Source of the DNA: Diplolepis rosae
Lineage: Eukaryota; Arthropoda; Insecta; Hymenoptera; Diplolepididae
Length of the DNA stretch: 64,000 nt
Reading direction: 5' to 3'
NCBI GenBank assembly: GCA_030998225.1
Contig: JAPYXD010000701.1
Location: 12,880,501 to 12,944,500, forward strand
Positions 24,337 through 45,244 of this stretch are shown here, one piece after another. Below the pieces are notes generated by a model. It made no database searches and was not told the origin of the DNA. It saw only the letters and a program-made list of their open reading frames with translations. Numbering within the stretch: the first letter of the stretch is position 1; every line of letters starts with the position of its first letter. The position numbers and the translations under genes were made by a program.

Positions 24337-24404
24337 CATCAACACCTCGGACACGGAACTGATGCTGAGGACATACATGGTGACGCCGACCTCCACGGGC
24401 GGAC
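24337..24404 (-). CDS. Rdl: Rdl GABA receptor, alternative exon 3 (VSEVLM version)
   Basis: This is the second 68-bp version of Rdl exon 3, 7,193 bp downstream of the first in gene order. The acceptor is GATTACAG and the donor GTACAG. It reads [22 protein letters not shown] after the split glycine, differing from the partner at two residues while its codons differ widely (mostly synonymous). That pattern means an old exon duplication under protein constraint, not a recent copy. It must splice to a DFTLDFYF-type exon that is not in the window, so the next intron is longer than 24 kb. GC content is far above the surroundings. Both sides are occupied by TTAA foldback elements of one family (23202-23978 and 25025-25797). 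Confidence 0.95.
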
Positions 24405-24748
24405 CTGTAATCAACAAGATCAACCGCCTTGGTCGATTTGATATTCATCTGATGGCCACTTAATCGAGAGGACATTAACTTTATTAATTAGTGGATCCGC
24501 GTGGCAACGTAGGCTCTTCCAAGACTTGATAGACCTTTATGGTAAACTTAAAATTCTAAAATTTGATGCCACACGGATGTCGTATGAAAGTTGTGACACA
24601 TGGGGTTGTAATTAGTAAGCGTCAAAGAGAGCCTCGTACCCTGCACGGAACCAAATCAACAGGACTCGTTGGCAACGTTACCTGCCAAGTTTCAAGAACC
24701 GTCTAGATTTGGACTATAATACACTCAACTAATATGGTCACGTTGTCA

Positions 24749-25020
24749 TAGGGGCATGTGATACTTAGAAAATTAGCAGATTCTATTAATTTCAGATTCC
24801 TACATGTTTGTGTTTAAATTGCATAAAAGTTTGAGAAATGGCAAAGAAAATAAAACCGGACGTAGACTACTTTTAGTTTAAAAAATGAAAATAGTTCAAT
24901 GCTAGCAAAATATATCCAAAATCTTGGAAACAAAGTTTTATCTATTTTGGACGTAAACAAATAGAAACTGGGCCAAGTTGATCACATGAACTTGCTTCTT
25001 TTCTTAAATATCATATACCC
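24749..25020. mobile_element. TTAA foldback element, GGGCATGTGATACT family, copy 1
   Basis: The left end GGGCATGTGATACTT follows ATAG. The right end AAATATCATATACCC is followed by TTAA at 25021-25024. Inner landmarks CTACATGTTTGTG and CCGGACGTAGACTA are shared with 55190-55555. Confidence 0.65.
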
Positions 25021-25024
25021 TTAA

Positions 25025-25797
25025 GGCCATGGCTCACCTAAAGATTCCTACCTCACTGCCATTTCAGTTACCGTAACCACGTGTCCTTGAAAAATAAGAT
25101 AAAAACTTGAAAAATTGTAAAATCAACAAAGTAGGTCTTTCTGGTCAAATATATATATATAAAATTATTGAATGAAATGGCTTTTATGGTATTTTTTAAA
25201 AAGTCCTTTTCCGAAATAAAGATTTTTATTTGATTTATAAAAAAATATATTTATTTCCAACAAATCAACGTTTCGACTGAAGCTTCAGTCCTTATCAAGA
25301 CTTTAATTCAATAAATTAAATGTGGAGACATCATGTTTCGCACAGATAAATATTTTGTATTGTAAGTTGTATTTATCAAATCATATATATATAAATATCT
25401 ATCAAGATATACGGTTAATGAAATATTAATGGAAAATTTCATAACAAATGTTATCATTTGGCAATTTTTAAAACTATGATTTAATAAATACAACTTACAA
25501 TATAAATGTACGAAACATAATGTCTCAACTTTTAATTTATTGAATCCACGATTTTTAAAGTCTTAATAAGGACTGAAGCTTTAGTCCAAACGTTAACTTG
25601 TCGGAAATAAATATATTTTTTTAGAAATTAAAAAAATTCTTTATTTCGGAAAAGATCTTTTTAAAAAATACCAGAAAGGCCATTTCATTTAATATTTTTA
25701 ATAATAAACTGGTAAAAATTACAATTATTTTGCATGGAAATGGGGTCATGGGAACTGAAATGCCGGTAAGGTAGGAATCTTTGTGTGATTCGTGACC
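25025..25797. mobile_element. TTAA foldback element, GGCCATG family, copy 3, with insert
   Basis: TTAA at 25021-25024 (shared with the previous element) and 25798-25801. The ends are GGCCATGGCTCACCTAAAG and a mirror TAGGAATCTTTGTG. The interior is taken up by the inverted unit at 25165-25705. Confidence 0.75.
25165..25705. mobile_element. Inverted arms resembling Penelope pseudo-LTRs, degenerate
   Basis: Arms 25165-25385 and 25485-25705 mirror each other (GGTATTTTTTAAAAAG, TCCGAAATAAAG, TATATTTATTTCC). Each holds a stretch like a decayed hammerhead: complement of the left arm reads TTGATAAG, stem GACTGAAG / CTTCAGTC, GAAACGTT; the right arm reads TTAATAAG, GACTGAAG, CTTTAGTC, CAAACGTT. The stem and GAAAC are clear in the left arm, but CTGATGA is altered in both. 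No protein is encoded. Probably a small non-autonomous relative of the Penelope-like element. Confidence 0.5.
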
Positions 25798-25801
25798 TTA
25801 A

Positions 25802-26570
25802 TGACTTTGACTGTGCATGATATCGATTAATATTCAATTTCCTTCTCTTTTTTCTATCGTTCCTTATCTTTTTTTCGGTCGCAATTTTGATTTCTGGAGT
25901 TTCTGATAGATTCGCCTTCTTTCCCTTCGTTCGAACGCAGTTCCTTTTTCCATAGAAGCGCTGTCACTGCGATCGTTAAAAACGTTCACGCGGAAAAAGC
26001 GGAGGGGGTATTTCTCATTGTCAGTGAACAAATCATCACAGGACTCGTTCGCCTTCTCGCCTAAAGCATCGACAGTAGGGAAAATTTATCTGTTCTTTTT
26101 TGTAGTGGTTTCTTTTTCCTTCCAATGCGATTTTAACGGAAATCAGTTTATCAGTGATGGCAGCGAGCAGCCCATTTCAGCAGCCGCGGCATAACAGCTA
26201 GGATCTAATGGGAATTTATATTTTTGATTGTGTAACGATGTGTGTGCTGGATTCATCGTGAAACGGCATTTCGTTGACCGACCAAATATTTTTGTGTTTT
26301 TTTAAAAGGTGCATTTTAACGAGCTGATCGCCATATTGGGGGGCTTGCGTACTTTCGTTGTTATCTCGTCGAAGAGTGCACCACTGCAGAAAATGGAATG
26401 CAAATTTTCATTGGTTCATTAGTTGTTGCAGGGGTTGGTATAATCTATAAGTCACTTTTATCCAATCCGCTTTATACTACTAGGAAATAGTTACAATTTC
26501 AAAGTTTTTCCAATCGCTATTTCAAACTCTCCAATTTGCATTCCATTGTCCTGCTCCTATTTTTTGTTGC
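25802..26570. other. Unique intron, CpG-richer
   Basis: Higher GC than the neighbours, no repeats seen and no coding exon recognised. Could be conserved intronic or regulatory sequence. Confidence 0.3.
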
Positions 26571-26999
26571 TTTTAATACAGAAATAAAAGTATCTCATTA
26601 CTTGCTGTTGGAGAAAAAGCCACAGCATGAAAAATTTTTTCAAGCTCAGACAAAATGGCGATCAGTGTATATAATAAAGAATTCACTCCTATGACAGATG
26701 GATATTCGTTTTCTCTCTTTGAGATGGATTTAAGGAAAACTGTAAATACATATAAGTTTCTCAGGAGATTTCTTGCTATTGTACAGACAGAGGGATTAAC
26801 GGTTTTTTCGCGTGGTGGATACACAACCCAATATTTATTTCCCAAAGGTAATTTCGGAGAACTTTTTTTATGCTTAGGAGGCAGAGAGCGAATTTCAGAA
26901 TAATGGGGGAGATTAACCATTAATGTCCGCGTCTGTACTTACAGTGAATTTGGTATATGTTATTGGTGTAGCGAGGTTGGATGAGTAGCGATAAAACGC

Positions 27000-43515: not shown

Positions 43516-43525
43516 AATAAAGCTA

Positions 43526-43800
43526 CACGCAGAAAAAAGATATAAGATTCACAGAAAACTCGGTACTTATTTCTACAACATGACTTTTCAGTAGATTTTA
43601 CAAAAAGCTCAGTTTAATCCATGGATTTTCTGTACGTTTCACTTAACTCCCAGTTACTAAAACCGGATTTTTCCGTATTTTGAAGATTTTACTACAAACT
43701 AAGTGAAACCTGCAAGAAATCCATGGATTTAACTCAACTTTTTGTGAAATCTACTAAAAATTAAAGTCGTAAGAATAAGTATTAAACTTTCTAAAAATTT
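43526..43800. mobile_element. MITE with CACGCAGAAAA end and ATCCATGGAT arms
   Basis: TA then CACGCAGAAAAAAG at the left. Arms around TCCATGGATT mirror each other (TTTCAGTAGATTTTACAAAA against its complement near 43735-43760). The right terminus is blurred. Confidence 0.55.
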
Positions 43801-43858
43801 CACCATTATTTCTATGTGAAATATACTTCCGATTATTTATAAAAGATATGAACTTCTG

Positions 43859-44107
43859 CACAGAGAAAAATGGATATTCAGGATCAATATCTATACATTC
43901 AACTATGTGTTAGCATCTTATATCTTTATATTCGGTTTTAATATCTAAATATTCAACTGTAATATTTAAGATATTCACATTTATCTATTTCAATATTCTA
44001 GATAGTAAAGCTAAATTTTCAGATGTCTGAATTTTCAGAATCTCTTGATATTAGAACTAAATATATAAAATTCCTGTTATATAGTTATATATCCATTTTT
44101 CTCCCTG
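43859..44107. mobile_element. MITE with CACAGAGAAAAATGGATA ends
   Basis: CACAGAGAAAAATGGATA at the left and TATCCATTTTTCTCCCTG at the right. The interior repeats GATATTCA / TGAATATC / ATATCTA words in both orientations. Three MITEs of this class lie in a row from 43.1 to 44.1 kb. Confidence 0.75.
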
Positions 44108-44109
44108 TA

Positions 44110-45146
44110 GAGATTATTATGCGCTCCCATCTATGTAGTTTGATAATTTTAACACAAATTTCATTACCTATGGAACTTTTTTTATAAGGGTTTTTGTCAA
44201 TGGAATGATACATCGTAATAAAGCATTCTAAAATTTTTAGTCTGATTTTTTCAAGAAAAGAATAAGATGTAAATAACATTCAACCAATTCAAAAATTTAT
44301 ATTTGAATTCACTACATTACTAAATTTTACATTGAATCAATCCATAAATCTTTTGCTTAAGATCCTATCAAAATAATTTTTATTATTTACGATGATTATT
44401 TTCAAACTGTTTATTAGAACCAATTGAGTATTTGGTTTTCTGTAGAATAACCAAATACTTTGTTCTACATATAAACAAACTTAACTAACTAACAAAACTT
44501 TTTTGACCTTTGTAAATTTAAATCAGTAAGATTTTACTGATTGTCATTGGAAATCCTTACTATTTAATTCAGTAACCCATTTCCCACTAATTTTATGTGG
44601 AAAATTAGAAAAAATTATATGTTGCTATTTTTAACCTGATGATTTGAAAAATATAAGAGATCTCTTTTGATTTTTAAAAATTCACGAGCAATCTCTTAAA
44701 TACCACAGGTTGAAGCGAGTCAGGGTTAATGGTTTGCGATCGTTAGTATCTCTTTGTAATTGAGTTCATATGATGTGGATATCGTTTTACTCTGCACGAA
44801 CGAACGCGCGTGGCCTAATCCAATATTTGAAAATCATAACGCAGATGTCGGAGGTAGTTTCTACAGAATCATTTAACCGAGTAAATTGATATGAATTTTC
44901 TTTTATTATCAATGCAACAGTTCTTGCCATATTGTGTTAAATACTTCAAGTAATTTGGTTTTACTCAAAATTTGGTTCTGTATAGAAAATTTTGTTTTTC
45001 GAATCTCAATTTTTTTTTTCGTTCAGACTGAGTTTCTGAGAAATTACGAACGTTTGCTTTTGGATATCTGCGAATTTCTTTGCCCTGATGCACTCATCGA
45101 TGTGAGCGATTTATGGAAATCGAGAGTTCAAACTACTGGTACTCAC
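44110..45146. other. Intron just downstream of Rdl exon 2
   Basis: Includes a hairpin GAGTATTTGGTTTTCTG / CCAAATAC at 44425-44460 and an AATCAGTAAGATTTTACTGAT fragment of the ATCAGTGAAA family near 44520. The rest is unique, with CpG-richer sequence at 44700-44830. Confidence 0.35.
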
Positions 45147-45244
45147 CTCCGTAGTTCGGCCTTACTCTTTTATCATAGTTTACCGAGAAAGAGTCCAGGA
45201 TTGCTGAGATGTTCACGTCGCCTAACATGCTCCCACCACCAGTT
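45147..45244 (-). CDS. Rdl: Rdl GABA receptor, exon 2 (partial CDS)
   Basis: This is an internal coding exon of an insect Rdl-type subunit of the GABA-gated chloride channel, a Cys-loop receptor of the neuronal plasma membrane. On the minus strand an acceptor (TTTTTCTAG) is followed by 98 bp and a strong donor (GGAG then GTGAGT). The exon starts in phase with one base of a split codon, then reads [19 protein letters not shown], then [14 protein letters not shown], with the last glycine split across the intron. The family normally has exactly this stretch just after the signal peptide, in the extracellular ligand-binding domain. NIS is an N-glycosylation sequon. The final G of this exon joins the GT that begins both downstream alternatives. 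I saw no signal-peptide exon at higher coordinates in the window, so the upstream intron exceeds 18 kb. Gene identity is very sure; the species is not. Confidence 0.95.

Follow-up and report, generated by a model that had tools for sequence, protein, structure and literature searches.

Reading frame and donor sites of the alternative exon 3 pair of Rdl in Diplolepis rosae

How can two alternative exons stay mutually exclusive when more than 7 kb separates them? The question is raised by a stretch of 64,000 nucleotides of the Diplolepis rosae genome (C373:12880501-12944500, that is, contig JAPYXD010000701.1, positions 12,880,501-12,944,500; the whole stretch is hereafter called the window). It holds three exons that sequence comparison supports as exons 2, 3a and 3b of Rdl, the gene for a subunit of the insect GABA (gamma-aminobutyric acid)-gated chloride channel. 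We propose, with a probability of roughly 70%, that one of the two 68-nt exons, 3a or 3b, is joined between exons 2 and 4, and that exclusive use is kept by competition between two weak donor sites together with nonsense-mediated decay. The pair is the known exon 3 pair of insect Rdl in a new host rather than a new system, and the useful extra detail lies in its frame and its donors.

Three exons of Rdl

All three exons lie on the minus strand. Exon 2 (45147..45244; 98 nt, 1+32x3+1) is entered in phase 2 and left in phase 1, with the donor gtgagt. An intron of 13,481 bp (31666..45146) leads to exon 3a (31598..31665), and an interval of 7,193 bp (24405..31597) separates 3a from exon 3b (24337..24404). 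Each form of exon 3 is 68 nt long (2+22x3) and has a weak donor (gtatta for 3a, gtacag for 3b), and either one completes the same glycine codon after exon 2. Positions 1..24336 are a portion of the 26,893-bp intron between exons 3b and 4, and positions 45245..64000 a portion of the one, 116,414 bp long, from coding exon 1 to exon 2, both likewise on the minus strand. Exon 4, for which a search of the 64-kb window found no copy, starts outside it, at window coordinate -2557 (C373:12877943); exon 1 (C373:13042159-13042256) also lies outside. An earlier note on this DNA had reported three exons on one strand with AG/GT borders and matching phases; its coordinates are correct to the base and its two exon distances agree with those given here, while the two introns that it had left open-ended are now closed at 116,414 and 26,893 bp. 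Chance is excluded as the source of the exon peptides: fly-like exon-3 and exon-2 peptides reach best six-frame BLOSUM62 scores of 101 and 156 in the window, where 50 first-order Markov windows gave no more than 36 and 31.

The earlier note had also named the gene as Rdl and suggested searching with the joined exon peptide; that search returns RDL as best, not another Cys-loop subunit. Among solved structures, the joined peptide finds PDB chain 9she at an E-value of 2.6e-28, and the next structure is a GABA-A alpha-4 chain at 6.8e-7. Chain 9she is named GABA receptor subunit beta, which we take to be the UniProt name of fly Rdl. Of the best 120 among 474 matches of the 55-aa peptide to public proteins, one alone, the RDL of the gall wasp Belonocnema kinseyi, agrees at every residue. 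Seven others have a lower E-value, since some of them at least carry both exons. With the Belonocnema protein as query, a search of the 757.7-Mb genome gave 44 places up to an E-value of 1. The Rdl exons account for twelve of these, each on the C373 minus strand. The remaining places are weaker matches on other contigs, presumably other Cys-loop genes, with identities of up to 55% over 33 or more residues and up to 65% over shorter lengths.

The product assembled from these exons is 97.9% identical to the protein of Belonocnema kinseyi (Cynipidae) and 97.1% identical to that of Leptopilina heterotoma (Figitidae), each over 478 aligned residues, and these are its two best matches among the best 120 proteins. 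The host accordingly falls among the cynipoid wasps, and probably among the gall wasps. In Pfam, the form with exons 3a and 6b matches the ligand-binding domain PF02931 with 177.4 bits and the transmembrane domain PF02932 with 154.1 bits in one open frame; the 55-aa piece alone scores 25.1 bits for the ligand-binding domain family, where the cut-off is 26 bits. The assembled protein contains NATPARVALGV, with PAR before the second transmembrane segment (TM2), a motif that is associated with anion selectivity (PMC2064938; this and the other papers are cited from excerpts of their text). Alternative exons are located, from sequence, at both positions typical of Rdl, 3a/3b at position 3 and 6a/6b at position 6. 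Could the exons instead belong to another Cys-loop subunit, such as GRD, LCCH3 or GluCl? The ligand-binding domain family is common to all of these, but RDL leads clearly in the structure and protein searches, and the PAR motif, both exon pairs and the 97.9% identity to a named RDL all argue against that assignment, to which we give practically no credence. An Rfam search gave no match at the gathering score, and a paper on "RdL" (PMC8956072) was set aside, as its excerpt uses the term for cathepsins and is irrelevant to the GABA receptor.

What the pair encodes

Exons 3a and 3b lie next to each other, are homologous and have the same length (68 nt) and phase, as a mutually exclusive pair should. 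They are identical at 51 of 68 bases. Their whole-codon residues are identical at 20 of 22 positions and differ at two, despite differences at 13 of the 22 third codon positions, which fits an old duplication under strong constraint. The choice of exon is predicted to place L..Q (3a) or V..L (3b) near ligand-binding loop D.

PMC2064938 describes complete conservation of both exons among fly, bee and beetle, and the Diplolepis rosae pair shares with those of Drosophila, Apis and Tribolium its position in the gene, its length logic and its two variable residues. Tribolium has an extra exon 3c (PMC2064938), whereas no third copy of exon 3 was found in the 64-kb window. The 3b peptide ends in SVSEVLM, as in other insects; the 3a peptide ends in SEVQM, where the fly form is SEVKM. 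This glutamine is found in 3a elsewhere, in 7 of 120 full-length proteins and in 4 of 11 exon-3a peptides among the first 115. Open-licence PMC searches returned no literature on LSEVQM or on Rdl or GABA in cynipids. Both exons occur together in 7 of 235 proteins, in the order 3a then 3b in all seven; their source names point to a mayfly, a blow fly and five Lepidoptera. These fusions have the look of prediction errors, yet they are informative on exon order.

A pair of this kind might also consist of one exon in use and one dead relic. We regard this as very improbable: frame, borders and protein are kept in both exons in spite of the 13 changed third positions, both are found in the proteins of other insects, and the Belonocnema record has the 3a form while the Leptopilina record has 3b.

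The earlier note held that the choice of exon changes the pharmacology of an insecticide target. For GABA potency this stands, on the strength of the literature: the EC50 (half-maximal effective concentration) of GABA differs between the aphid forms RDL1ad and RDL1bd (PMC6121307), and an effect of splicing on agonist potency is stated, with reference to earlier work, in an excerpt of PMC4019635, whose own three isoforms behave alike and all seem to be of the bd type. It does not extend to the cyclodiene-resistance alanine, which is encoded by exon 7, some 67 kb past the left end of the window. In the assembled protein, PARVALGV stands before and at the start of TM2, and we take the alanine after its V to be A302, the cyclodiene-resistance site when changed to serine. 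Both PMC2064938 and PMC7017565 mention the substitution A302S. Cyclodienes and fipronil act on Rdl; knowledge of insecticide action is unchanged by the exon map given here.

How one exon might be chosen

Exactly one copy of exon 3 between exons 2 and 4 keeps the reading frame. Because each exon is 68 nt long, neither or both would give an early stop: in the computed mRNAs the stop falls at codon 124 when both exons are missing and at codon 109 when both are present. Exclusivity of the pair could be policed in this way by nonsense-mediated decay, a principle set out for mutually exclusive exons in PMC6071210, and in aphid clones the lack of exon 3 does come with a shifted frame and a premature stop (PMC6121307). 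As in other decay-policed exclusive exons, the two copies have equal lengths that are not a multiple of three, and use of both or neither leads to a premature stop; here we infer decay from frame arithmetic. Three database peptides (P0004, P0008 and P0013) look like translations of 3a spliced to the alternative exon that follows, in a shifted frame.

The exon 6 pair, on the same strand but outside the window, makes an informative comparison. Exons 6a (C373:12832731-12832868) and 6b (C373:12830536-12830673), formerly called c and d, are like 3a and 3b two homologous exons of equal length whose donors lack a G at position +5. They differ from the exon 3 pair in length (138 rather than 68 nt), in spacing (2,057 rather than 7,193 bp) and in having no frame check: at 138 nt each, both copies used together stay in frame, with a computed product of 524 aa. 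Rdl thus offers a clean contrast within one gene, a frame-policed exon 3 pair beside a frame-neutral exon 6 pair.

The donors set the exclusive exons apart. All seven constitutive donors have the form gtRAG, with G at +5, whereas none of the four donors of mutually exclusive exons has it (gtatta for 3a, gtacag for 3b, gtagat for 6a and gtaacg for 6b; Fisher 0.003). Mutually exclusive exons are known to have weaker splice sites (PMC6071210); for Rdl exon 3, no earlier description of weak donors was found in open-licence PMC titles, abstracts and text excerpts. The same weakness can be sought in other insects through run-on peptides, that is, protein models that seem to continue from an exon into the intron, among 292 proteins. 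After exon 3b, V comes first in 51 of 51 run-ons, and none of the 51 fits gtNAG. After exon 3a, V comes first in 24 of 33 (nine were set aside), and one of the 24 fits gtNAG. By comparison, 81 of 96 run-ons after exon 2 fit gtAAG or gtGAG. These counts suggest that the weak exon 3 donors are conserved in other insects.

Several points tell against a role for weak donors in the choice. Counted over nine positions, the donors overlap, with 5, 5, 7 and 6 for the alternative exons and 6-8 for the constitutive ones. An optional 27-nt microexon, (A)SKPRETIL, has a donor with G at +5 (gtaagg); having no exclusive partner, it was not counted on either side of the comparison. It lies outside the window, in the last Rdl intron (C373:12773930-12773960), and is also present in the Belonocnema and Leptopilina records. 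The run-ons carry a bias, in that 47 of 51 for 3b and 13 of 24 for 3a come from a query containing the window's own run-on; without these, 1 of 15 fits gtNAG for 3a and 3b together. Because the species are related, the counts are not independent and the very small P value computed from them cannot be taken at face value. Finally, weak donors and a frame check need not belong together, because the exon 6 pair has the weak donors only.

Other ways of enforcing exclusivity bear on the 7.2-kb gap. Steric hindrance is implausible at this distance, since it needs a very short intron and the interval between 3a and 3b is 7,193 bp. A mixture of U2 and U12 splice sites, a mechanism named in PMC6071210, does not fit two exons that are both GT-AG. 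A third possibility is long-range RNA pairing between a docking site and selectors, as in Dscam, with decay as clean-up only. It is called the major mechanism for such exons in PMC6071210, and two foldback elements lie within the 3a-3b interval. Among 15 pairs of 400-nt near flanks of the exons, however, none beat nearly all of 60 resampled controls, in a comparison of one genome with low power; the lowest, upstream-3a with upstream-4, was matched by 5 of 60 controls. Moreover, 3a and 3b share no flank beyond about 71 nt. We consider RNA pairing an unlikely basis for the choice. Local folds of 3a and 3b with their flanks were ordinary, with 35 and 20 of 60 controls as low, and a duplicated flank around the two exons was looked for and rejected, as the resemblance stops no more than a few bases from either exon.

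We return to weak-donor competition with decay. Under this proposal, the donors of 3a and 3b would compete for recognition, tuned by trans-acting factors, one exon would be joined between exons 2 and 4, and wrongly joined mRNAs would be removed by nonsense-mediated decay. The two together could keep the pair mutually exclusive without close spacing. A broader version is more tentative, and we hold it at somewhat less than even odds: that all four exclusive exons are marked by donors without G at +5, that the weakness of 3a and 3b is conserved across winged insects, that competition and the frame check free the exon 3 pair from close spacing, so that transposons could have pushed 3a and 3b 7 kb apart without upsetting the choice, and that the frame-neutral exon 6 pair has to rely on a different mechanism.

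The intron just upstream of 3b yields a side observation. A peptide read from it in three moth RDL models (P0116, P0118 and P0121), VTVLWFGFHGARRARDSRLGLIAG, is identical in all three, and for this reason the stretch may be conserved. At the same upstream position, many Hymenoptera-like run-ons have LLIA and Diplolepis rosae has LLIT.

The whole gene and its repeats

Per transcript, Rdl would have ten coding exons. With the alternates the gene has twelve, and its coding part extends over 272,159 bp, from C373:13,042,256 down to 12,770,098. Beyond the gaps given above, those downstream of exon 4 measure 25,261 bp (4-5), 19,504 bp (5-6a), 17,444 bp (6b-7), 22,800 bp (7-8), 15,063 bp (8-9) and 4,406 bp (9-10). 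Each of the four combinations of 3a or 3b with 6a or 6b encodes an intact 478-aa protein. This makes a complete map of the Rdl coding exons of a cynipoid wasp, supported by frame and donors and with exact junctions.

The earlier note described the introns as filled with mobile elements. Repeats are indeed present, but the description overstates their share near the exons: three dispersed families cover 2,393 bp, and with a 781-bp foldback at least 3,174 of the 20,674 bp of intron in 24,405-45,146. Up to 40 candidates were scored per genome query, so that copy counts are lower bounds, as are these totals, since other families may be hidden. A young non-coding element in the intron between exons 2 and 3a (35926..37279) has at least 39 other copies at 98-99% identity, near-perfect inverted ends of 26-27 bp (35921-35953 and 37254-37286) and no open reading frame above 61 aa. 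The 1.35-kb query gave 7,250 first-look candidates over its whole length, which, with the high identity of the copies, points to a very recent burst in the Diplolepis rosae genome. The same intron holds a dispersed repeat (43123..43511) with at least 39 other copies at 91-95%, most of them over 43163-43511. Between 3a and 3b, a foldback repeat (30193..30841), 754 bp downstream of 3a, has at least 39 other copies at 82-84% and 7,252 first-look candidates. A second foldback (25021..25801; 781 bp) lies about 616 bp upstream of 3b, and its outer arms alone matched elsewhere. The two foldbacks bracket the 3a-3b interval and, as RNA, would form long hairpins. In addition to the 3,174 bp, AT-rich tandem repeats of 10 and 20 bp occupy about 1.1 kb (28481-29594) and are partly duplicated at a spacing of 480 bp.

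We also compared introns beside alternative exons with the others, and the former appeared poorer in repeats (pooled 15.8% against 28.5%, rank-sum P 0.026). The comparison was post hoc, and we do not rely on it because its small sample missed the young 1.35-kb element that a query of the whole genome brought out. The stretch from exon 2 to exon 3b contains 27 open reading frames of at least 75 aa; among the 12 of these that were scanned with Pfam, none has a transposon domain, and three gave weak non-transposon matches below the cut-off. Coding transposon pieces lie elsewhere in the window, at 6312-7837, 17390-18832 and 58125-58499. The piece at 17390-18832 is a Penelope-like element, with a PF00078 reverse transcriptase and a PF01541 GIY-YIG domain in adjacent minus-strand frames separated by a stop codon, and a mariner-type transposon at 6040-7978 is broken into two frames (PF17906 and PF01359) and has many related pieces elsewhere in Rdl.

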